Source: Sulfurimonas sp. | GTDB lineage: Bacteria; Campylobacterota; Campylobacteria; Campylobacterales; Sulfurimonadaceae | NCBI GenBank assembly: GCA_027044845.1 | Contig: JALUBM010000273.1 | Span: forward strand, 1-14,227 | DNA: 14,227 nucleotides | Reading direction: 5' to 3' | Part shown: positions 2,965-13,564 of the stretch, piece after piece | Numbering within the stretch: the first letter of the stretch is position 1 | How the letters are laid out: each line of letters starts with the position of its first letter | Translations under genes and position numbers: made by a program | Notes under the pieces: model-generated | Databases searched by the model: none | Told to the model about the DNA's origin: nothing | The model's input: only the letters and a program-made list of their open reading frames with translations

Positions 2965-5312
2965 TGAGTACACAAACACAACATAATCCTGATGAGATTG
3001 ATTTAGGAGAGATTTTTAGAGTTTTAAAACGCTATAAGTACTCCATTATCTCTTTTGCAATTATTGCCACTTTACTTGCTGCTGTTTTTGCCTATTTTTC
3101 ACCAAATATATATAGCAGTTCAGCAAGTGTATATGTAAAGGATAGTGGGCGAAATTCACAAGATGATATAATCAATAAAGCTATGGGCATGCAGAGTGCG
3201 AATATTGATAATGAACTTGCAATTTTACAATCATATACCATCGCATCCAAAGCATTAAATCATCTAAATATAGGAACTAGATATTTTAAAAAACATAATT
3301 TACGAACAGTTGAACTTTACCAATCAACTCCTTTTTTAGTAGAACATTCATATTTATCTCTAAAAGCAACACAATCTTTATTTCATATTATACCAATTGA
3401 CTCAAATAGTTTTAGACTTATCATACAGCCTTCTTTAAAGAGCAAAATTATTTCTTATATCAAATCTAAAATTGTACCTTTATCAAAAAAAGATCTTCCA
3501 ATTGTATATAATGCTGTCCATAATTATGGAGAAATCATTAAAACAGAATGGTTTACTATTAAAATACAAAGAATTTATAATTTTAAAGATGAAGAGTACT
3601 CTTTTAGAGTCGATGACAATGAAAATATGGCAGGTTTTATTCTAAACAATCTTTCCGTTAATACAGCCTCTCAATTTGCAACCATCATAGATATTAATTT
3701 TCAAGATACAGTAGCAAATAGAGCCGCAGATATAGTAAATGCCTTAACAAATGCTTATATTGATGACAAACTTGACATGAAAACAAAAAGTGCAAAGAAG
3801 ACTCTACAGTTTTTAGATTCACAAATTGAAGCAATCAATAAAAAACTACAAATGTCTGCAAAAAATCTTGAACATTATAAGATGAAAAACCTTGTCGTTA
3901 CACTTAGTGACAAGGCATCGCTTACCGCAGGAAAACTTTCAGACTTGCAGAGTAAATTGTATGAACTTAATATGCATGAAAGCTTCTTTCGTAATATTGC
4001 AGAGTATATTAAAACACATAACGATATTACAGGTCTTAATTTAGGTGGTTTAAAAAATATAAGTCCAATAATAAGTACCCTATTAATTAAAATTCAAGAG
4101 CAAAATGCACTAAAAAAATCACTCTTAATCGACTATACGGAACAGCATCCTGATGTTATAAAAGTGACACAAAGCTTAGCTTCTATGAAACAAACACTCT
4201 TAGAAACTATTAATTCAAGTATTAGAAATATAGAAGAACAAAAAGTAAGTCTTCAGCATACAATAGATGAAAATAAAAACAATTTAAAAGCTCTTCCTGC
4301 ACAGGAGAGACAACTTACTAGTTTAACAAGAAATTTTTCCGTTAATGAAAAAGTTTACTCCTATTTACTTCAAACGAGAGCTGAAACAGCAATTTTAGAA
4401 TCATCAACTGTCTCAGATACAAGGGTTATTGATCCTGCCATGGTTTTTGATCAACCTATCAAACCAAAAAGATTTCTAATTGTCATTATTGGTTTTATTC
4501 TTGGACTTATTTTAGGAATTGTTCAAGCCCTACTCCGTGCAAAACTTGATAATACCATCAAAACCATAGAAGATGTTGAAAATAACAGCTCTTTAGCAAT
4601 GTATGGTGTTGTTCCGAAATTTGACGCTAAAAAACAGACTAACCATGCTTTCGAAGAGGCTCTTCGTGTAGTAAGAACAAATATTGAATTTCTCCAAAAC
4701 AGTAATAAATCTAAACTTATTACGGTTACTTCTTCTGTTCCTATGGAAGGTAAAACTACTCTCATTTCAGAAGTAGCTAAAATCTTTGCTAAGACACATA
4801 AAACTGCTATTGTACTTGATCTTGATATGCGTCGTGCGAGACTCCATGAGAAGTTCGAACTCTCCAATTCTAAAGGTATGAGCACACTTTTAGCAGGCAA
4901 AGATACTATTAATGATGTCATACAACATACAGACCAAGAAAATTTAGATGTCATCACAGCAGGTCCTACTCCACCAAATCCATCAGAGCTAATAATGTCA
5001 ACGAAGATGAATAAGATTATAGAATTTCTTCTGACAAAGTATGACTATGTATTTTTAGATACTCCGCCGATAGGTCTTGTAAGCGATGCAATGATGCTTC
5101 TTAAAGTATCTGACTTAAATCTTTTCGTAGTCAAAGCAAATTTCTCTAAAAAAGAGTTTTTAGGCAGTATTGAAAGAATTGTTGAAGATCATAAACTACA
5201 TAATTCAGGTATCATCTTAAACGAGGTTATTTTTGATAAAAAATCCGGATATGGTTATGGCTATGGTTATGGCTATGGTTACTCTAACGAATACTACAAA
5301 AATGAAAGCTAA
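2964..5312 (+). CDS. wzc: Wzc-like polysaccharide co-polymerase with BY-kinase domain
   Basis: A 782-aa inner-membrane protein of the PCP-2a type. An N-terminal Wzz-like region begins DEIDLGEIFRVLKRYKY, with the first membrane helix at about 26-45. A long periplasmic part carries coiled-coil helices (about 265-450). The second membrane helix is about 504-524. The cytoplasmic bacterial tyrosine-kinase domain starts near residue 550: EEALRVVRTNIEF, Walker A PMEGKTT (593-599, K597), Walker A' VLDLDMRR (D619, D621) and Walker B VFLDTPP (D699). The C-terminus is a tyrosine cluster (Y763-Y778, eight Tyr), the usual transphosphorylation target that controls oligomer state and polymer length/export. 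It acts with the Wza protein to form the trans-envelope complex. Translation is coupled to the upstream gene through TAATG. The 3' end overlaps the opposing phosphatase gene by four bases. Confidence 0.94.
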   Translation: MSTQTQHNPDEIDLGEIFRVLKRYKYSIISFAIIATLLAAVFAYFSPNIYSSSASVYVKDSGRNSQDDIINKAMGMQSANIDNELAILQSYTIASKALNHLNIGTRYFKKHNLRTVELYQSTPFLVEHSYLSLKATQSLFHIIPIDSNSFRLIIQPSLKSKIISYIKSKIVPLSKKDLPIVYNAVHNYGEIIKTEWFTIKIQRIYNFKDEEYSFRVDDNENMAGFILNNLSVNTASQFATIIDINFQDTVANRAADIVNALTNAYIDDKLDMKTKSAKKTLQFLDSQIEAINKKLQMSAKNLEHYKMKNLVVTLSDKASLTAGKLSDLQSKLYELNMHESFFRNIAEYIKTHNDITGLNLGGLKNISPIISTLLIKIQEQNALKKSLLIDYTEQHPDVIKVTQSLASMKQTLLETINSSIRNIEEQKVSLQHTIDENKNNLKALPAQERQLTSLTRNFSVNEKVYSYLLQTRAETAILESSTVSDTRVIDPAMVFDQPIKPKRFLIVIIGFILGLILGIVQALLRAKLDNTIKTIEDVENNSSLAMYGVVPKFDAKKQTNHAFEEALRVVRTNIEFLQNSNKSKLITVTSSVPMEGKTTLISEVAKIFAKTHKTAIVLDLDMRRARLHEKFELSNSKGMSTLLAGKDTINDVIQHTDQENLDVITAGPTPPNPSELIMSTKMNKIIEFLLTKYDYVFLDTPPIGLVSDAMMLLKVSDLNLFVVKANFSKKEFLGSIERIVEDHKLHNSGIILNEVIFDKKSGYGYGYGYGYGYSNEYYKNES
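5250..5279 (+). repeat. 12-bp tandem repeat encoding the Tyr-Gly tail of the kinase
   Basis: The unit TATGGTTATGGC occurs two and a half times in tandem (5250-5279) and encodes alternating Tyr-Gly (Y763 to G772). The unit is a multiple of three, so slippage would add or remove tyrosines without shifting the frame. Confidence 0.85.
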
Positions 5313-5327: not shown

Positions 5328-6049
5328 AAAATAGTGTTATTTTTAAATATTTTTTCCATCACCTTATGAGAATTAAGATTCTTCTCTAAATGGTTTAACT
5401 GCCTTTCTTTATGCGTATCACTCCCTACAAAATCTATGAGTCCCTCTTGAGCCAGTCGATTTGCAATTTTTTGCACATCTTTTGAGTAATACCCACTAAA
5501 TGAATTGAGATTAATTTGAAAGAGTAAGCCCTTGCGTTTAAGCCACCTATATTCTTCAAAGTTCTTATGAAAAAACAGATAACGCTCAGGATGGGCAAGC
5601 ACTGGCTTATACCCAGCAGAGATCATCTCAAAAATTGCCGATTCTAAAGATATTGGCTTTTGTGTATAAGAAAGTTCAAATAAAAGATAGTTATTTCCAA
5701 AAGTTAATAAATCTCGTTTAGATAATAACTCCAAAAAATGCTGATCTAAAAAATACTCTGAAGCAACTGCAAGTTCAATATTTATATTTTGTTTATGCAG
5801 TTCATTTTTTAATTCTTCAAGCCCAGATAGAATGTGTTCACTTGTATTTGGATACTTATCTCTCATTATATGTGGTGTAATAACAAGTTTTTTAAAACCT
5901 AACTCTTTTAATTTTTTAATAAGTGAAATAGATTCACTCATACTCTTCGCTCCATCATCTATGCCAGAAATTAGATGCGAGTGAACATCAACAGTATAAT
6001 AATCCACATCTTTATGTGGCTGAAACAAAGCAAATATATTTTTAAACAT
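5309..6049 (-). CDS. cpsB: CpsB/CapC-type PHP-family protein tyrosine phosphatase
   Basis: The 246-aa protein has the PHP metallophosphoesterase signatures of the CpsB/YwqE family: DVHSHLISGIDDGA (H23, H25, D31, D32), a VITPHIMRD block, the ASEYFLD acidic segment, AHPERY, and a C-terminal GSDTHK motif. Family members use divalent metal ions to remove phosphate from tyrosines of the BY-kinase that drives capsule or exopolysaccharide assembly. No signal peptide is seen, so it should work in the cytoplasm on the tail of the adjacent kinase. The gene runs opposite to the kinase gene and overlaps its end by four bases. Its start has a weak AGGA ribosome binding site upstream on the minus strand. 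The two genes are thus expressed from separate promoters, unlike the usual co-directional kinase-phosphatase operon. Confidence 0.93.
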   Translation of the reverse strand: MFKNIFALFQPHKDVDYYTVDVHSHLISGIDDGAKSMSESISLIKKLKELGFKKLVITPHIMRDKYPNTSEHILSGLEELKNELHKQNINIELAVASEYFLDQHFLELLSKRDLLTFGNNYLLFELSYTQKPISLESAIFEMISAGYKPVLAHPERYLFFHKNFEEYRWLKRKGLLFQINLNSFSGYYSKDVQKIANRLAQEGLIDFVGSDTHKERQLNHLEKNLNSHKVMEKIFKNNTILNESLL

Positions 6050-6075
6050 ACACTTTTATATCCTAATTTCTGTTT

Positions 6076-6081
6076 ATTATA
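6076..6081 (-). promoter_or_regulatory. Candidate -10 box for the phosphatase gene
   Basis: Reading the minus strand, TATAAT lies 27 bases before the phosphatase start codon. The -35 region (about 6098-6104, TTTAAG/CTTTAA) is weak and lies inside an inverted repeat. Confidence 0.4.
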
Positions 6082-6107
6082 TTACTTTTTTACTAATCTT
6101 AAAGTAA
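6082..6107. repeat. Inverted repeat in the divergent promoter region, possible operator
   Basis: TTACTTT (6082-6088) and AAAGTAA (6101-6107) form 7-bp arms separated by 12 bases. The repeat covers the spacer and -35 area of the candidate minus-strand promoter and ends 14 bases before the -35 of the plus-strand promoter. Being AT-rich, a match of this size can arise by chance. Confidence 0.3.
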
Positions 6108-6121
6108 CTGATAGGAGTTTC

Positions 6122-6150
6122 TTGTAATTATGATTAATTTATGTTATAAT
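6122..6150 (+). promoter_or_regulatory. Strong sigma-70 type promoter for the 95-aa peptide gene
   Basis: TTGTAA (6122-6127) and TATAAT (6145-6150) are separated by exactly 17 bases, and the -10 is extended by TGT directly before it. This is the best promoter in the window. It is followed by a strong ribosome binding site, GGAGG at 6167-6171, eight bases before the ATG, so the downstream small gene is probably highly expressed. Confidence 0.72.
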
Positions 6151-6179
6151 ATGAGAATTAAAAAACGGAGGATTAATAC

Positions 6180-6467
6180 ATGAAAACGATTGAAAAAAAA
6201 TCGGTAGAAGTCGATGATACAAAGCGTGAATTTATGAAAAAATTTGGAGGTTATGCAGCAACGGCGCCAGTTGGTATGTATATGCTGATGACTCCAAGTA
6301 GTTCAGCTGCACAACAATCTGGCTGTGGTCACAAAAAGATGAGTTGGAAACAAACAAAGCATATGTATAAGCAACACCTCTTCAATGAATATGGAAAGAG
6401 TAAAGGTAAACAGATGTGGCAAGAGAACAAACACTGGTTGCATAAACAGTACAAAGCTAGCTTATAA
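6180..6467 (+). CDS. Small basic exported-type peptide with Tat-like leader, candidate substrate of the adjacent kinase
   Basis: No family with a known function was recognised. The 95-aa protein has a charged N-terminus, then TKREFMKKFG (residues 14-23), a moderately hydrophobic stretch (24-38, GYAATAPVGMYMLMT) and SSSAAQQ. This layout is like a twin-arginine signal, except that the RR pair is KR (K15 R16); cleavage near A43-A44 is possible. The rest (45-95) is very basic and rich in Lys, His, Gln and aromatic residues, with W56, W80 and W86, a single cysteine C49, and repeated K-x-H or H-x-x-K patterns; the protein ends A-S-L with a penultimate Ser94. It has a near-consensus promoter and GGAGG ribosome site and is followed by a stem-loop and then by an RRE-like/HPr-kinase-like gene and a nucleotidyltransferase. 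I infer it may be the peptide these enzymes modify; a simple Tat-exported periplasmic protein is the alternative. Confidence 0.7.
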   Translation: MKTIEKKSVEVDDTKREFMKKFGGYAATAPVGMYMLMTPSSSAAQQSGCGHKKMSWKQTKHMYKQHLFNEYGKSKGKQMWQENKHWLHKQYKASL

Positions 6468-6484
6468 TCATAAAGCTTTATCTC

Positions 6485-6511
6485 AGGGCAAGTATTTCAA
6501 ATATTTGCCCT
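6485..6511 (+). terminator. Stem-loop after the small peptide gene, possible attenuating terminator or processing site
   Basis: AGGGCAAGTATTT (6485-6497) pairs with AAATATTTGCCCT (6499-6511), 13 pairs with one G-U wobble; the innermost pairs would open to give a real loop. It is followed by TAAAAATTTAA rather than a T-run, so it is not a textbook intrinsic terminator. It may stabilise the small upstream mRNA or lower expression of the enzymes downstream. Confidence 0.5.
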
Positions 6512-6565
6512 AAAAATTTAAGATTATTAAATTAAGGATTACATATAAAAATTGTAAATATTACG

Positions 6566-7672
6566 TTGCAGTGTAACTTTTTAAGTGCTTATGTGCTAAC
6601 AGATTCTCTATTAGTATTTTCAAAAATGACTGAGTTTGTATATGGATTTGAGAAAAATGATGCCGCACTTTTTTTAGAGATTGATGTTTTGTTAAGTAAA
6701 GGATATGCTAAAAAAGATATATTTCAAAAATATTCTGAGGTTCCAAAAGAGTTGTTGCGAAGGGTTTACGCTTTACTCTCTTGTCAAGAACTTGACAATA
6801 TTGTTGAATACCAACCAAAAAAGGATTTTGGAACTTTTACAGAAAGTAGTGTCTCCCGTCTCGCCTATACTGCTAATCATGTAAGTTTTCTCATTCACTA
6901 CCCAGATAAGGACCTTTATAACACCATACATCCTGTCATTTCACACTTACAGAGCAAAAAGTTAAAAAAGAGATGTATTAATGTTGATTTTATAAAAAAA
7001 GAAAAAAAATGGCAGATTATTTTTAATGACGTTCCAATTACAGAGTTTAATAAGATTTCAACTTTAGCACTTGGTCTCCAAGAAAATATGCTTATAGCCC
7101 TTTATCAATCCAAGCCGCACCTCATTACCATACATGCAGCAGCTGCTCAATATAATGATAAGTTATTTATTTTACCTGCAGTGAGTGGATCAGGAAAAAC
7201 GACTTTAACAACAGCTTTGATGCATCATGATTTTCGAATTTATTCTGATGAATTGGCCGTAATAAGCCGAAAAGGGAAAGTTTCTGCATTACCTTTTTCC
7301 TTAAATATAAAAGAAGGAAGCTGGAAAATTATAACAACGATGTATCCTGATTTTAACTCAACGGATTATCATATTCGTTTTGATAAACAAAGAGTGAAAT
7401 TTTTAAAGCTTAATCAACAATTTTCTTTAAATAAAAGGAAAAGACCTACACATCTCATTTTCCCTCAATATAAAGAAGGAGCCAAAACAAAACTGATAAA
7501 ATTAAGTGCATGCGAAGCATTAAACCGCATTAAACAGGCGGGCTATCAGCTAGACAAACCATTAACAAAAGATACATTTGAAGATATTTTAACTTATTTA
7601 CTAGCTCTACCGAAATTTTCATTAGAATATTCTTCGTTAACAGAAGCTGTAAATGTTATTAGTAAGCTATGA
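6566..7672 (+). CDS. PqqD/RRE-like domain fused to HPr-kinase-like (HprK-related) kinase
   Basis: Residues about 1-80 look like a PqqD-type RiPP recognition element: a beta-rich start (SAYVLTDSLLVFSKMTEFVYGF), then NDAALFLEIDVLLSKGYAKKDIF, the helix-turn-helix-like 'ld.l..G.s..ei' pattern. Residues about 185-310 resemble the C-terminal kinase domain of HPr kinase/phosphorylase: IHAAAA (H190), Walker A GSGKTT (208-213, K211), YSDE (D228) and a VSALPFSLNIK segment. The proposed role is phosphorylation of a peptide or protein bound through the N-terminal domain; the neighbouring 95-aa peptide is the obvious candidate. The start is uncertain. TTG 6566 has no ribosome site at proper distance, while AAGGA at 6534-6538 points to ATA 6545 or ATT 6551 in the same open frame, which would add IKIVNIT or IVNIT, a plausible first strand. 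The stop overlaps the next ATG by four bases. The kinase call is firmer than the RRE call. Confidence 0.8.
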   Translation: MQCNFLSAYVLTDSLLVFSKMTEFVYGFEKNDAALFLEIDVLLSKGYAKKDIFQKYSEVPKELLRRVYALLSCQELDNIVEYQPKKDFGTFTESSVSRLAYTANHVSFLIHYPDKDLYNTIHPVISHLQSKKLKKRCINVDFIKKEKKWQIIFNDVPITEFNKISTLALGLQENMLIALYQSKPHLITIHAAAAQYNDKLFILPAVSGSGKTTLTTALMHHDFRIYSDELAVISRKGKVSALPFSLNIKEGSWKIITTMYPDFNSTDYHIRFDKQRVKFLKLNQQFSLNKRKRPTHLIFPQYKEGAKTKLIKLSACEALNRIKQAGYQLDKPLTKDTFEDILTYLLALPKFSLEYSSLTEAVNVISKL

Positions 7673-8796
7673 TGATGAATAGAAAAAATGCTTTATTGCT
7701 ATTTTGTACATTTTTAAAATCTTTATCCAAGAAAGAGGTATTGGAATATAGACAAAAAATTATTGATGATAAAATTCCTTGGTTACAACTTATTGCAATT
7801 GCAAATAGTGACTATATGATTCCGCTTCTATATATGGCACTACAAAAAAACTGCCTCTACGATGATATTTTAGATGAACAGTTAAAAGAGTATCTTTATA
7901 CAATATATACTTTCAATTATGAACGAAATAAACAAATACTACAACAGTTAGATGATTTGGTCTCAACACTTTCTCCTTTGGGTATTACACCTTTACTATT
8001 AAAAGGTTCAGCTGTTTTATGTGAAAATGATTATGATGATTTAGGTGCAAGAAGTTTAACAGATATTGATATACTCATTAAAGAAGACGCACTTAAAAAT
8101 GCATTTAATGCATTAGTTGCAAATGGATACCATTTTACTAGAGAGGAAGATAAGCGTACACTTACAAAAGATTTTCATCACATAGAACCAATAAGTAAAG
8201 AAGGCTATCCTTCATCAGTTGAACTACATCGTACCATACTAGGTAAAGGAGTATCAACTTATATGCTCGATTATGAGCAACATATGACTAAAAGTACTCA
8301 TAAAGATTTTGCAGATATTAATATATTAACACCAACCTACCGCCTGTACCATGCATTTTTGCATACAGAACTACAAGATGCAGATTACAAATTTAAAAGA
8401 TTAGCTTTAAGACATTTATTCGATTTTACTGTACTAGTTAAAAAATATGAACAAGAGATAGATTGGAAACTATTAGACCAGTTGGTCACTAAAAAAGAGT
8501 GTAAAGAAATTTTAGAAGATTATCTTTATGTAGTAAATCAACTATTTTCTCTCCAAACACCACTTACTACTACAACAAAAAGAGCACAAAGACATTACCG
8601 TATGGTTTGTAAAGAATTTGAGCTTAGAAACTCATGGTTAGGTTATTTCTATCCTTTATCTGCACAAATTCCCAAACTTTTACAAGCCTATTCTTATAAA
8701 AAACTACAAAAAATTCACTCTTTTAACTCTTATAATGGATATATCATAGCTATTTTCAAACACTTTTATTTTCATATAAAAAGTAAAATCTTCTAA
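7669..8796 (+). CDS. Nucleotidyltransferase-fold protein of the PF14907 type
   Basis: The 375-aa protein has the signature of the 'uncharacterised nucleotidyltransferase' family (NTP_transf_5): LLKGSAVL (K112 G113 S114), a GARSLTDIDILI block with the metal-binding D132 and D134, and SSVELH (E185, H187) as the likely third acidic site. The N-terminal helical part (WLQLIAIANSDYMIPLLYMAL) and the helical C-terminus (ALRHLFDFTVLVKKY) also fit. Such enzymes are predicted to transfer a nucleotide to a substrate; members occur beside HprK-related kinases and PqqD-like proteins, and in some lasso-peptide clusters. The start overlaps the kinase stop as ATGA, so translation is coupled. Three ATG codons in a row (7669, 7672, 7675) leave the exact first residue open. 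The target here is unknown; acting on the small peptide after or instead of the kinase is inference. Confidence 0.82.
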   Translation: MMMNRKNALLLFCTFLKSLSKKEVLEYRQKIIDDKIPWLQLIAIANSDYMIPLLYMALQKNCLYDDILDEQLKEYLYTIYTFNYERNKQILQQLDDLVSTLSPLGITPLLLKGSAVLCENDYDDLGARSLTDIDILIKEDALKNAFNALVANGYHFTREEDKRTLTKDFHHIEPISKEGYPSSVELHRTILGKGVSTYMLDYEQHMTKSTHKDFADINILTPTYRLYHAFLHTELQDADYKFKRLALRHLFDFTVLVKKYEQEIDWKLLDQLVTKKECKEILEDYLYVVNQLFSLQTPLTTTTKRAQRHYRMVCKEFELRNSWLGYFYPLSAQIPKLLQAYSYKKLQKIHSFNSYNGYIIAIFKHFYFHIKSKIF

Positions 8797-8851
8797 AAAA
8801 GTAAATCTATGTTACAATATGTAAACATAATATAGAAAGGGGAATAAAATT

Positions 8852-9565
8852 ATGATTTTTTATAAATATTCAAGAAGAGTAACTTACTTTTTTGTATTTA
8901 TGCTCGCAATTAGTATATCTGGATGTGGTGGTGGAAGTTCAGATACATCATCCTCATCTACGCAAAACTCACTTCCTTCCACCAACAATGTTGAAGAACC
9001 ATTAGTAAGTGCAATTCAATACAAAGATCTTTTTAAATTAATAGATACTCAAAGTGACCAAACAGCACTTATTATGGATGCATACGGAGTCGAAGGCTTA
9101 CACATAGTTTGTTCATCTGCTAATGTACTTAGCAAAAAGAATGGACTTTTTAAATGTAATGACATACCTCTAAATATATACTTAGGTAATTTTAAAATTG
9201 GAACAATTTCAAAATTACCAAACGATAAAATAATCTACACGCAAGATATACTCAATCTACCAAGAGCAGCTACTGTGCATCCTGATGTCACAAAACTTTC
9301 TATGATTTTACAATCACTCGACGAGAATGGAAATTTAGATGATGGTATAAATATTACCCAGGAGAGCATGGAGCTACTTGACAATGAACTAGCAAACTTT
9401 ACAAGCCTGCAAAAAATGACACTTAATGATGTAAATAATGCAATAAACAATGTCATAGAAGCACGCAAAGCAAATGATGTAAATACAAAACTAATAAAAG
9501 TGTCACCCAAAGATGCTCAAATAAATCTCACTAATGCTCTTGCAAATACACCACCAAAAGGATAG
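8852..9565 (+). CDS. Lipoprotein with LLQSLD-DGN type domain, function unknown
   Basis: The 237-aa protein has a lipoprotein signal peptide (hydrophobic residues 10-20, lipobox SISGC, acylated C25) followed by a Gly/Ser-rich linker (CGGGSSDTSSSS). The body shows a pattern seen in many secreted or surface proteins of marine proteobacteria: a 'GLF.C.dIPLNIYLGNFKIGTI' segment, a TQDILNLPRA segment and then KLSMILQSLDENGNLDDGINI (from about residue 148). Two cysteines, C87 and C102, could pair in the periplasm. The C-terminal third is helical and polar. I do not know the function of this domain. A good ribosome site (AAAGGGG, 8836-8842) lies nine bases before the ATG. The gene ends three bases before the large glycosidase-like gene, whose ribosome site is inside its last codons, so the two are co-translated and probably work together at the cell surface. 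Confidence 0.8.
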   Translation: MIFYKYSRRVTYFFVFMLAISISGCGGGSSDTSSSSTQNSLPSTNNVEEPLVSAIQYKDLFKLIDTQSDQTALIMDAYGVEGLHIVCSSANVLSKKNGLFKCNDIPLNIYLGNFKIGTISKLPNDKIIYTQDILNLPRAATVHPDVTKLSMILQSLDENGNLDDGINITQESMELLDNELANFTSLQKMTLNDVNNAINNVIEARKANDVNTKLIKVSPKDAQINLTNALANTPPKG

Positions 9566-9568
9566 ACA

Positions 9569-12500
9569 ATGAACTCAAACAAAAACAAAATTATATTTTC
9601 ACTCTCTACCCTACTCTTAATTATAATGGTGTCTTTTCTTGTATATCAAAAAGAACATAAAAACTTAGCAGCACCCACGCAAACAATAACTAAAAAAAAT
9701 AGCATAAAAGCCACACCATTAAAATATACCGGGTACACACTACTAAATAAGTTCAATAAAGCAACAATAGAAAACTATCCAACCGCTGCAGGTACTTATG
9801 ACCTTGCAACTATGGCATCAAATATAACATCTCAAATGCTTCAGGCATTCTCAACAACAAAAACAAAGACCTTACCTCTTGTAGCAAACTGGAATGTTGG
9901 CATACCTGAGTATAGTGACGGGCTTGACCCACTTTACATGATAAACAGGCTAACAAATGGAGAGAGTCTCATTCCTACATGGAAACTGGATCCATACTAC
10001 AATGACAGCATAGGACTAAGCTACTATGAAACCTCCATCAAAAAAGCTGCTGAGCTTGGACTTCCACTTGTATTTACTCTTCCTTCACCAGAATCAGCAC
10101 TTACAAAAGATGATGTGTACTTTACTATGGACAAGACAAACAACCCAAATGTCATCACACCAAAAGGAATTGTACTACCAAAACTAAGCCCTTTTGGACC
10201 CGACAGCCTCTGGAATGAAGTTGGTGGGCAATGGAGTACAACCTCTTTAATGGCACAACTGCAAGAGTGGTACCCAAATCCTCCTTTGGTTATTTTCATA
10301 GATGAGGACAGTGCCGCCAAGCTCTCTTGGAGTGAACTTAGCAGTTCATCTCGTTACCAAACGCAGTATCCATCGGATGGTAGTGATGAATTTAAACGAA
10401 CACTCATCAATGCTCAGTGGGTAGAAAAATACCGTCAACTGCATCAAGGATTTGTGCAAGGATTTACAAATGATGCATGGAAAAAGAATGCAAAATTTAT
10501 TACCCGTAATCAACTCGCAATCAACATGGGTACATCAAGTGATTGGAAGCAAGATGCAACAACTACAAATTTGCAGGCTAATGTTTGGCCATTAACAGCT
10601 AATGGTCTCACCATAAATTTTGATATTGGTGCGGACAAAGAGCTACTTAACAATCTCCCTTTTATGCTAGATGAGGCAAAAAATATTAATCCTAACTTTG
10701 TTTCCCAACTCAGCATAGATGCGCATCAAAAAATAACCAACCCTAATACTTACAGAGGCTATACGCAACTAGCACTTTGGTTACTTCGACCAAATATAGT
10801 AAGACAAACATCAAATGGAACAACTAAAACAGACATCAATCCTCTTTTTCAGCAAGTAGTTGACTCCGTAGAACTCATTAATAATAATGATATTCTTGCT
10901 GACTTCTGGAAAAATGGAAAACTTGTAACAGCAGGTGATAGTAACTTTAACCTTAATATTCCTACAAAATTCCAAACAGCACCACGAGAATTTTTTCTTA
11001 AAACTGATGCAACAGTACCTGTATATGCATTTGCACTTAAAAAAGGTATAGCGCCTAATCGTGAATGGCTTATATATACTCAGTCTCCTGATGAAAACTT
11101 ATCCAATATTACAATTACTATTCCAACATTTAAAGATGTTACAGTAAATTCAACAGGTATGGGAAGTTTCAATATTATTGCAGAAAATAATACTGTTAAA
11201 TCTTTAAACAACAATACAGATGAGACGTCTGCGGTTAAGGAATTAGTTGATAACTTACTTATAAGCACAAAACAATCTTTAGATAATTTTAAATATGATT
11301 TAGAAACTTTCTCACTAAATAAAACATTTGAAAAAGAATTTTTTGTCAGTACTACTGGCAATGACAACAACCCTGGTACGATTGATAAGCCATTTAAAAC
11401 CATCACGAAAGCAAGAGATAGTGTTCGAGCATATAAAAACAACAATGGTATTCCAAATGGTGGAATTGTAGTATGGATACGTGGGGGTTCTTATTATTTG
11501 ACCAACATTTTAAGATTTACGGCAGATGACTCTGGTTCTAAAGATTCACCAATTGTATATAGTGCTTATAAAAATGAAAAAGTATATCTTATTGGGGGTA
11601 AAAAACTTGACAATAGTTGGTTTCAATCCGTCACATCTGCAGATCCTTTATGGAATAGATTAAATATTTCAGCAAGAGATCATCTTAAATCTATTAATCT
11701 CGCTAAACACGGCATTACAGACCTTGGTACTTTAGAAGAAGACAAAGATAATAGTATAGTGCCACCAGAGCTATTTGACAACAATCAAGCATTAGATCTT
11801 GCAAGATGGCCTGATAGAAATATAACCACAAGATTACAAACAATCAACGATAATATAATCATACTTTTTGGTGATATTACACCAGATGTTACTGGTAGAT
11901 ATATCAAGGAATCTTCTAATCCACCTATTTTTAAACATGATGGTCTAATTAATGGGGTGCAATACTACATCAAAAGAATTGAGAGTACAAAGATATCTGA
12001 TCGTCGTTCATGGGTTATTACTGATGAGAATAATAAAAAATTATGGAGTTATACTCAAGTAGGGTTTAATTTACCAAAAGAATTTATAAATGCATATGCT
12101 GGAAGTAAAGGTATTCCATCTTTACTCAACAAGAATGATAAACAGTTTGGTTTTGCATTTATTTCAAATGGAATAGATGATAAAACATTTCAATATACTG
12201 AAAACAATCCAAAGAATTGGATGAATACTGGTGACATATGGATAAATGGTATGCTTCAATATGCCTGGTCTAATAGACATGCCAAAATTAAAAATATTGA
12301 TAAATTAAACAATCAAATTACATTCCAAAATACACCAACATATGGAATACATAAGGGAAAATCAAAGAGGGCTTATTATTCTTATAATATTCTTGAAGAA
12401 TTGTCAACAGAAGGGGAATATTATATTGATAGAGATACAGCGATAGCATATGTATGGCCACTCGAAAACATTGATAAATCAAATTTCATAATATCTACGA

Positions 12501-13564
12501 ATACACAAACGTTAATCTACCTAGATAACGCATCATCGATTCAGTTTTATGGCTTAACTATAGAAGATGGAAGAAATTCTCTTGTTGAAATAAAGAATGG
12601 ACATAATAACTTAATAGATCATTGTATTTTAAAGAATAGTGGTAAGTGGTTAATCAAAATATCTGGTAGAACTAATGGAATTCAATATAGTGAGTTATCA
12701 GAAGCGGGGGAAGCTGCAATAATTTTGTCTGGAGGAACACGTTCTACACTTATAAGCGGCAATAACTTTGTTAAAAATAATAACATACATGATTTAGGTC
12801 GTTGGCAATGGACTTCTAAAGGTGCTGTAAAGCTTTCTGGCGTTGGTAATATTATAGAGCATAATAATATTTTTAATATAAAACATCAGGCAATCAACTA
12901 TACAGGGAATAATCATAGTATACAATATAATAATATGTATAATATTGAAACTTATTCTGAAGATAGTGGGGCAATATATGCTGGAAGAAACTGGGGGTAT
13001 AGAGGTAATAAAATTAATAATAATTTTATTCATAATCTTATAAATAATTATGGAGCTGCTTATATAAACGGTATATATTTTGATGATTCCTTAAGTGGTA
13101 ATGAAGCAATAGGGAATATCTTTTACAATATTGATGGACATGCAATATATATCAACGGTGGTCGTAATAATATAGTTGAAAATAATATATTTTACAAAGT
13201 AGCTACAGCTTTTCTCAGTACAAATTCAGGATATAAAAGTGTTAACAACATACCTGGAAGTAGTTTTAACTTATTGGAAAAACTACATGCTAACAACATC
13301 AGTTACAATAGTGGGATTTGGGCTCAAAACTATCCAAGACTAGCAAAAATGCCTGATGATTGGGAACAGATTAAAAATAGTAAATGGCTACTTCCAATTG
13401 GTAATGTATTTAAAGATAATATTTTTAAAAATGTATTAAAAACTGCAGAAGGAGTGATGGAAAACAATTTTAATCTTTACAATGAATTTAATAATACAAG
13501 TGTAACGAGTACTGATAATCTTTTATTATCTAATTATAATATAGGTATAGTTACTGTTCCATAG
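9569..13564 (+). CDS. Large membrane-anchored protein: putative glycosidase-like domain plus GH141-like parallel beta-helix
   Basis: The 1331-aa protein has one N-terminal membrane anchor or signal (about 8-26). Residues about 50-530 are a globular domain with alternating strand/helix segments (LPLVANWNVG, AAELGLPLVFTL, PPLVIFIDED, GLTINFDIG), which suggests a TIM-barrel glycosidase; no family was firmly recognised. After an Asn/Thr-rich linker (about 535-585), a second domain starts EFFVSTTGNDNNPGT (590-604) and continues KPFKTITKARDSVR, a GG.YYL.. segment, LARWPDR and long Asn-rich parallel beta-helix rungs, with DSGAIYAGRNWG (D1132) and GIYFDD (D1172, D1173). This resembles GH141-type and related beta-helix proteins that cut or bind polysaccharide. 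Context in an export locus suggests trimming or degrading the exported polymer. AAAAGGA at 9556-9562 supports the start. GC content falls sharply from the first to the second half. Confidence 0.85.
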   Translation: MNSNKNKIIFSLSTLLLIIMVSFLVYQKEHKNLAAPTQTITKKNSIKATPLKYTGYTLLNKFNKATIENYPTAAGTYDLATMASNITSQMLQAFSTTKTKTLPLVANWNVGIPEYSDGLDPLYMINRLTNGESLIPTWKLDPYYNDSIGLSYYETSIKKAAELGLPLVFTLPSPESALTKDDVYFTMDKTNNPNVITPKGIVLPKLSPFGPDSLWNEVGGQWSTTSLMAQLQEWYPNPPLVIFIDEDSAAKLSWSELSSSSRYQTQYPSDGSDEFKRTLINAQWVEKYRQLHQGFVQGFTNDAWKKNAKFITRNQLAINMGTSSDWKQDATTTNLQANVWPLTANGLTINFDIGADKELLNNLPFMLDEAKNINPNFVSQLSIDAHQKITNPNTYRGYTQLALWLLRPNIVRQTSNGTTKTDINPLFQQVVDSVELINNNDILADFWKNGKLVTAGDSNFNLNIPTKFQTAPREFFLKTDATVPVYAFALKKGIAPNREWLIYTQSPDENLSNITITIPTFKDVTVNSTGMGSFNIIAENNTVKSLNNNTDETSAVKELVDNLLISTKQSLDNFKYDLETFSLNKTFEKEFFVSTTGNDNNPGTIDKPFKTITKARDSVRAYKNNNGIPNGGIVVWIRGGSYYLTNILRFTADDSGSKDSPIVYSAYKNEKVYLIGGKKLDNSWFQSVTSADPLWNRLNISARDHLKSINLAKHGITDLGTLEEDKDNSIVPPELFDNNQALDLARWPDRNITTRLQTINDNIIILFGDITPDVTGRYIKESSNPPIFKHDGLINGVQYYIKRIESTKISDRRSWVITDENNKKLWSYTQVGFNLPKEFINAYAGSKGIPSLLNKNDKQFGFAFISNGIDDKTFQYTENNPKNWMNTGDIWINGMLQYAWSNRHAKIKNIDKLNNQITFQNTPTYGIHKGKSKRAYYSYNILEELSTEGEYYIDRDTAIAYVWPLENIDKSNFIISTNTQTLIYLDNASSIQFYGLTIEDGRNSLVEIKNGHNNLIDHCILKNSGKWLIKISGRTNGIQYSELSEAGEAAIILSGGTRSTLISGNNFVKNNNIHDLGRWQWTSKGAVKLSGVGNIIEHNNIFNIKHQAINYTGNNHSIQYNNMYNIETYSEDSGAIYAGRNWGYRGNKINNNFIHNLINNYGAAYINGIYFDDSLSGNEAIGNIFYNIDGHAIYINGGRNNIVENNIFYKVATAFLSTNSGYKSVNNIPGSSFNLLEKLHANNISYNSGIWAQNYPRLAKMPDDWEQIKNSKWLLPIGNVFKDNIFKNVLKTAEGVMENNFNLYNEFNNTSVTSTDNLLLSNYNIGIVTVP

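Follow-up and report, generated by a model that had tools for sequence, protein, structure and literature searches.

The window analysed here is a 14,227-nucleotide stretch of DNA, namely contig JALUBM010000273.1 of the Sulfurimonas sp. assembly GCA_027044845.1. Near its middle it carries a gene for a 95-residue precursor-like peptide, followed by a gene for an HprK-type kinase with a fused N-terminal RiPP recognition element (RRE)-like domain and a gene for a nucleotidyltransferase of family PF14907. The three genes probably form a lasso-independent RRE-kinase peptide-tailoring cassette, in which a serine of the peptide would be phosphorylated before the nucleotidyltransferase acts and the leader is removed. 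This reading is based on the gene set itself, on the co-occurrence of peptide and kinase, on the division of the peptide into a conserved leader and a variable tail, on the fusion of RRE-like domain and kinase together with a split counterpart, and on conserved catalytic residues. A first-pass annotation of the same DNA had proposed a peptide-modifying system composed of these three genes, the latter two overlapping by ATGA; its coordinates were confirmed and its overall reading is supported. The features are as follows.

6122..6150, forward strand: promoter-like site TTGTAA-17-TATAAT with extended -10 (consensus scan only)
6167..6171, forward strand: Shine-Dalgarno-like GGAGG before the peptide gene (read from the sequence)
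6180..6467, forward strand: gene for the 95-residue precursor-like peptide (open reading frame; leader conserved in relatives)
6222..6317, forward strand: conserved leader core KREFMKKFGGYAATAPVGMYMLMTPSSSAAQQ (alignments A4 and A5)
6318..6320, forward strand: Ser47 at the leader/tail junction, candidate phospho-acceptor (nearly invariant in A4)
6321..6464, forward strand: variable tail, the candidate core, His/Lys-rich in the window
6545..7672, forward strand: RRE-HprK-type kinase gene (start uncertain: ATA 6545, ATT 6551 or TTG 6566)
6581..6778, forward strand: RRE/PqqD-like N-terminal domain of the kinase, residues 13-78 (N-domain profile; modelled secondary structure)
6803..7669, forward strand: HprK/PEPCK-fold kinase domain, residues 87-375 (H197, GSGKT 215-219, D235-E236)
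7669..8796, forward strand: PF14907 nucleotidyltransferase gene (123.6 bits against a gathering cut-off of 31.2; ATGA overlap with the kinase gene)

A peptide with a conserved leader and a variable tail

The 95-residue open reading frame is considered a real gene because its leader is conserved at loci of the same kinase. In alignment A4, which was assembled from such loci, the window leader shares 46-71% identity with each of the 12 others. The promoter-like site upstream is one of two 10-of-12 matches within positions 5900-9000, but the scan found 22 sites compared with 16.7 +/- 4.6 in shuffled sequences and alone provides weak support.

The leader-like character that had been ascribed to the N-terminus was confirmed by comparing 13 of the 15 Campylobacterota peptides (those of loci L010 and L031 were left out). 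Over their 78 pairs, the 35-residue leader has a mean identity of 67% and the tail one of 13%, calculated as identical residues divided by the longer tail, and the kinases average 42%; the compared rows are related by descent, so that all p-values are optimistic. At L007 and L008, kinases and leaders are 82% and 89% identical, respectively, and tails 23%. Repeats such as GHGGHG, RPGRPGRP, KPRKPRK, and GQGQGQ are frequent in the tails. The tails do not always vary freely, however: those of L009 and L013 are 78% alike, and the Rhizobiaceae-type tails have a GDKNH...GPP pattern in common. None of ten peptides scanned exceeded the cut-off of any Pfam or NCBIfam model.

Serine is concentrated directly behind the leader. 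For the serine count, AxA sites were picked by a script, with hand corrections for L003, L015b, and L056a made beforehand, and the four of 32 peptides without AxA, including the one from the window, were left out. In 25 of 28 peptides, at least one of the three residues behind the AxA site is a serine, and serine accounts for 35 of 76 residues in the first three positions compared with 36 of 780 further on. Ser47 of the window peptide aligns with the serine following the leader in its relatives (A4). The C-terminal residue is not a conserved serine, and the acceptor is therefore more likely located just after the leader.

Linkage of peptide and kinase in Campylobacterota

A kinase search among 99 relatives identified three genomes, the window's own as well as G062 and G097. 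In the latter two the order peptide-kinase-nucleotidyltransferase is repeated, and the N-termini of the peptides can be aligned with that of the window while their tails cannot. Scanning of public genome contigs with the kinases of these three genomes yielded ten loci, nine from metagenome-assembled genomes (MAGs) of Campylobacterota and one from Bradyrhizobium. Eight of the nine MAG loci, and likewise the Bradyrhizobium locus, have a leader-bearing open reading frame immediately in front of the kinase gene; L015 contains two of them in tandem. Altogether, an intact peptide gene directly precedes the kinase gene in 12 of 13 Campylobacterota kinase loci. The exception is L010 from the Sulfurimonadaceae MAG BB26, in which an apparently broken leader copy (4993-5118) is found upstream of the kinase and an intact copy 2.6 kb upstream; the same genome encodes a further kinase, accompanied by a peptide and a nucleotidyltransferase of its own (L032/L062).

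When the 13-leader profile A4 was run against 397 genomes of the phylum, it matched exactly the three kinase-bearing ones (3/3 vs 0/394). All three had supplied training rows for A4, two of them from one genus, and the weight of this result lies in the 394 blanks. In Hydrogenimonas GMC4 (G463), a protein of at most 174 residues, which combines this leader with a tail of about 120 residues, is encoded far from the kinase (L031, 1477-1998).

Alphaproteobacterial relatives, plasmids, and domain shuffling

The association recurs in the order of Bradyrhizobium. Here, TIGR04352 matched 15 of 150 genomes at E<=1e-8, many of them partially, and a wider kinase profile, whose training set included kinases from nine of these genomes, found 11 at E<=1e-15. 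Nine of these kinases are near full length, and those of G532 and G588 lack the N-domain. The leader profile A8 matched 27 of the 150 genomes at E<=0.01 and nine at E<=1e-8, and these nine are the genomes with near-full-length kinases (9/9 vs 0/141), whereby the E<=1e-8 cut-off was set after viewing the list and seven of the nine genomes had contributed leader training rows. The other two, G476 and G502, had not, and their leaders are encoded apart from the kinase (on a different contig, or at distances of about 50 kb and 2.1 Mb); in the remaining seven the peptide adjoins the kinase. As in Campylobacterota, peptide homologues occur together with the kinase, contrary to the outcome that the first-pass annotation had named as refuting its proposal.

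Among the 18 weaker leader matches (E 1e-5 to 0.01), those examined include G546, G532, and G483, which reveal other domain arrangements; at least the match in G546 is genuine. G546 encodes, on one strand, a PqqD-like protein (PF05402, 28.4 bits against a cut-off of 23.4), an HprK-like kinase in an overlapping gene, and then a peptide (L081, 1429-2914); the wider kinase profile has no match in this genome at 1e-15. Thus, the two domains that are fused in the window occur there as separate genes. The kinase of G483 (L063, 3588-4745) has a C-terminal PqqD domain (PF05402, 54.9 bits) and, accordingly, the reverse fusion order. It is located elsewhere in the genome than the weak leader match, and L063 was left out of the peptide counts because the leader-like open reading frame nearby continues into a longer protein. 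In G532 (L060, 3118-4890), the kinase without N-domain is followed by seven related peptides in tandem, which read SKRETLDxLxKGAAFATPIVASFAMDGL...NGSGV plus a few variable residues, and a glycosyltransferase is encoded alongside. The weak alphaproteobacterial kinase matches L043-L047 and L049-L052 were subjected to pattern inspection only.

Relatives of the kinase are also present in 20 plasmid records, six of which were fetched. In five of these, from Methylobacterium tardum, Rhizobium gallicum, Leisingera aquaemixtae, Sinorhizobium chiapasense, and R. tropici, a peptide is part of the gene set, and the sixth, from Methylosinus, has none. The kinase on the Methylobacterium plasmid is annotated as a 'PqqD family peptide modification chaperone'.

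The kinase and its RRE-like domain

The kinase gene lacks an ATG start codon. TTG 6566 is listed as the start, but homologues begin a few codons further upstream, at or near ATA 6545, and AAGGA is found at 6534-6538 before the candidate starts. Homologues and AAGGA suggest ATA 6545 or ATT 6551 as the start, where TTG is used by several relatives.

The N-domain profile matches the RREs TbiB1 (E=5.9e-5) and TfuB1 (E=4.5e-4) from lasso-peptide systems, and the modelled domain has the secondary structure bbb-aaa (β-strands and α-helices) with a predicted local distance difference test (pLDDT) score of 94-97 for the block. The Pfam PqqD-like domain has no match in the window kinase by itself and was recovered with profiles of relatives; at E<=0.01, six of the 22 kinases match PF05402. 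The PqqD-like, RRE-like N-terminus proposed in the first pass is thereby upheld by the relatives' profiles and the model. The hits listed by Foldseek and VIA-align for the kinase are PEPCK and HprK chains (the VIA rows span residues 87-375) and are uninformative for the N-domain. The evidence for the RRE assignment consists of sequence profiles together with the modelled secondary structure.

TIGR04352 (HprK_rel_A) scores 101 bits on the window kinase, below its cut-off of 200 bits, and covers only residues 188-375. At E<=0.01, TIGR04352 matches all 22 kinases and TIGR04353 three of them. The catalytic histidine and the P-loop lysine are conserved in 21 of 22 kinases, and the S/T and the first aspartate in all 22. 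The spacings known from BsfK (H-K 21, K-D 17) recur in 21 of 22; the BsfK residues were matched by spacing, as BsfK itself is outside the alignment.

The nucleotidyltransferase

All 18 aligned nucleotidyltransferases match PF14907 (NTP_transf_5) at E<=0.01; a profile search with them found no relative in the PDB by sequence. The gene adjoins that of the kinase in seven of nine alphaproteobacterial loci and in 11 of 13 from Campylobacterota; the remaining two Campylobacterota loci run into a contig end. Of the six fetched plasmid loci, five have it no more than about 1 kb from the kinase. PF14907 is present somewhere in 20 of 21 kinase genomes and in 22 of the 397 genomes of the window's phylum.

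Proposed mechanism and points against it

By analogy to BsfK and its separate RRE, the RRE-like domain fused to the kinase would hold the peptide by its conserved leader. Phosphorylation by the kinase would take place on the serine directly behind this leader (Ser47 of the window peptide), and the PF14907 enzyme may then add a hexose or a nucleotide to the phosphate, comparable to PsmN. Cleavage of the leader near the AxA-like site would finally release a small decorated peptide with a species-specific tail, for which export and a biological role are presumed. A broader proposal, which is possible but tentative, is that these peptides constitute a new lasso-independent class of ribosomal phosphopeptides, or phospho-glyco/nucleotidyl-peptides, in Campylobacterota and Alphaproteobacteria. 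Their Tat-like leader would also serve as an export signal, the first serine after cleavage would be marked, its phosphate would be capped by the nucleotidyltransferase, and the diversified tails (Gly-His, Arg-Pro, Lys-Pro, and Gly-Gln repeats) would carry a modified N-terminus.

Several observations weigh against a tailoring cassette of this kind. With respect to the peptide, three of 28 have no serine in the first three positions after AxA (in L016 the serine is the fourth residue, L054b ends in Arg, and L056b ends in Tyr), and the window peptide has no strict AxA. Seven alphaproteobacterial peptides and that of L010 have only about 0-8 residues after AxA, so the long tail is not always the product; in species with such short peptides, the product may instead be a short modified stub, or the peptide itself may have a role. 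With respect to the kinase, the TIGR04352 cut-off is reached in none of the 397 and 150 genomes searched. All 13 Campylobacterota rows have Glu in place of the second catalytic Asp of BsfK, nine of 22 rows including the window have Ala in place of its first Gly, and L007 and L008 have Glu in place of one P-loop Gly. The kinase homologue of L061 (2437-3771) has degenerate catalytic residues, and its genome retains a leader peptide. The linkage also has gaps: a leader at E<=1e-8 is missing from six of the 15 TIGR04352 genomes (G477, G483, G504, G532, G572, G588), and no peptide was found near L068. Furthermore, 19 of the 22 PF14907 genomes of the phylum have neither kinase nor leader. As PF14907 is commoner than kinase and leader, the tight link is the one between peptide and kinase, and PF14907 has other partners.

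HprK-related kinases and PF14907 nucleotidyltransferases have been annotated without a substrate, and PF14907 is named 'uncharacterised'. The finding offers a concrete family of substrate candidates, a predicted binding domain, and a predicted acceptor serine. If it is correct, it would represent a system outside lasso clusters in which peptides are phosphorylated by a single chain that combines RRE and kinase.

The leader as a possible export signal

The strongest rival explanation regards the conserved N-terminus as a twin-arginine translocation (Tat)-type signal of a small exported protein, which kinase and nucleotidyltransferase would decorate without recognition of a leader by an RRE. A [KR]R motif, a weakly hydrophobic stretch, and AxA are indeed found in 28 of 32 peptides (assigned by a script, with one misplaced), the 15 alphaproteobacterial leaders of A8 have RR, and TatC was matched in 12 of 13 genomes, the only miss being the window's own genome, which is 64% complete. 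The Campylobacterota leaders speak against this explanation, as all 15, including that of the window, have KR instead of twin arginine, whereas all 20 centred extractions of Tat signals from six of their genomes show RR (from 30 loci, of which five gave none and five were off-centre and not counted; the PF10518 model used itself favours RR). In addition, none of the ten peptides scanned with Tat models exceeded a cut-off, with PF10518 at E 0.08 and 0.58 and TIGR02811 at E 0.016 as best values, and the window peptide was recognised by no Tat model. The Tat explanation is unlikely as a whole. Tat export as such is attractive but, judging from the motif, doubtful where leaders read KR.

Genomic surroundings and other possible substrates

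The window starts with an OlsF-type bifunctional ornithine lipid synthase (239-1984; 634 bits against a cut-off of 620), followed by a polysaccharide export protein, a Wzc-like kinase, CpsB on the opposite strand, and the peptide, kinase, and nucleotidyltransferase genes. Downstream of the latter are a lipoprotein-like gene, a gene for a 1331-residue protein (9569-13564), whose beta-helix match is weak and which has no relatives among the first 70 loci fetched, and a WecG-type transferase gene. The polysaccharide locus of the first-pass annotation is real insofar as family searches of the window proteins confirmed the export protein, the Wzc-like kinase, CpsB, and the WecG-type transferase, but these neighbours have no relatives at the other fetched loci. 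In tblastn searches of the first 70 loci, many of them short, the peptide, the kinase, and the nucleotidyltransferase matched 31, 58, and 38 loci, respectively, while the other seven window proteins matched only the window's own copies or nothing. From these comparisons, the polysaccharide setting looks like a local feature of the window. Several Hydrogenimonas-type kinases have a protein of about 420 residues encoded upstream, propeller-like by eye, which has no counterpart in the window. A phage or viral origin was rejected: the kinase alignment has no relative in viral_contigs, and the window kinase has no match in the phage collection.

The surroundings bear on a second rival explanation, according to which kinase and nucleotidyltransferase act as a pair on another substrate (a glycan, sugar, lipid, or protein), with the peptide serving as regulator or accessory. 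It draws on the polysaccharide genes of the window, on an annotated polysaccharide export gene at L067 and the glycosyltransferase at L060, on the occurrence of PF14907 without kinase or leader, and on the nucleotidyltransferase fold, which is also compatible with small-molecule transferases such as ANT(2''). This explanation is quite improbable in view of the RRE-like domain and of the separate PqqD gene beside a similar peptide, of the co-occurrence of peptide and kinase even where they are unlinked, and of the tblastn result for the other seven window proteins. A toxin-antitoxin module, in which the kinase would hold a MenT/AbiEii-like nucleotidyltransferase toxin in check, is very improbable, as it leaves peptide and RRE domain unexplained and conflicts with the HprK/PEPCK fold of the kinase and with PF14907 in 18 of 18 nucleotidyltransferases. 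The least probable explanation, a degenerate lasso-peptide cluster, was rejected: kinase, RRE, and nucleotidyltransferase are all known from lasso clusters and several alphaproteobacterial leaders contain YxxPxx(L/I), which is near YxxPxL, but the B2-type lasso protease family PF13471 was found in only three of 21 genomes, several of them incomplete, and on contigs other than that of the kinase, and family searches found no cyclase among the ten window proteins.

Comparison with known systems

The closest resemblance to the peptide-tailoring cassette is seen in the systems for phosphorylated and phosphoglycosylated lasso peptides, namely paeninodin (PadeK), pseudomycoidin (PsmK/PsmN), and BsfK/BsfB1/BsfN, with which it has an HprK-like kinase, a PqqD-like RRE, a nucleotidyltransferase homologue, and a leader in common. 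Lasso clusters with kinase, RRE, and nucleotidyltransferase are described in PMC10368454 and PMC8498205. According to the former, BsfK phosphorylates Ser3 of the core and is greatly accelerated by the separate RRE BsfB1. According to PMC9266682, PsmN, an annotated nucleotidyltransferase, adds hexoses to the phospho-serine of pseudomycoidin. The window kinase resembles BsfK in its key residues and their spacing, and the serine near the start of the post-leader part resembles Ser3. In contrast to the lasso systems, the cassette has its RRE joined to the kinase, shows neither B2 protease nor cyclase, and has a Tat-like leader and tails that are variable, often repetitive, and of differing length. 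In line with the first-pass annotation, family searches found neither an asparagine-synthetase-like cyclase nor a radical SAM enzyme among the ten window proteins; for the cyclase the search was confined to the window.

Three further systems have individual parts in common with the cassette. The NCBIfam HPr-rel-A set comprises TIGR04352 (HprK_rel_A) and TIGR04353 (PqqD_rel_X), both of which match the split pair of L081 below cut-off; the window kinase differs from this set in its score and in having the PqqD part fused. The SynChlorMet cassette is built around radical SAM enzymes, which the window proteins lack, and at E<=0.01 six of 22 kinases match its kinase-like ScmC and one of 22 its PqqD-like ScmD. 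The formate dehydrogenase region Tat-target peptides of TIGR02811 are also small and Tat-like, and the E 0.016 match below cut-off came from a plasmid peptide; the model is named for formate dehydrogenase regions, and a kinase link is absent from its name.

In the literature within reach, which excluded most subscription journals, nothing was recognised as this peptide family or as an RRE-HprK fusion with it. The parts are known singly: HprK-type peptide kinases, RREs, and nucleotidyltransferases from lasso clusters, and the HPr-rel-A set by the names of TIGR04352 and TIGR04353. By the PF13471 search the cassette does not qualify as a lasso cluster, and the window kinase stays below the TIGR04352 cut-off, yet its residues would fit an enzyme that works as a lasso kinase does.

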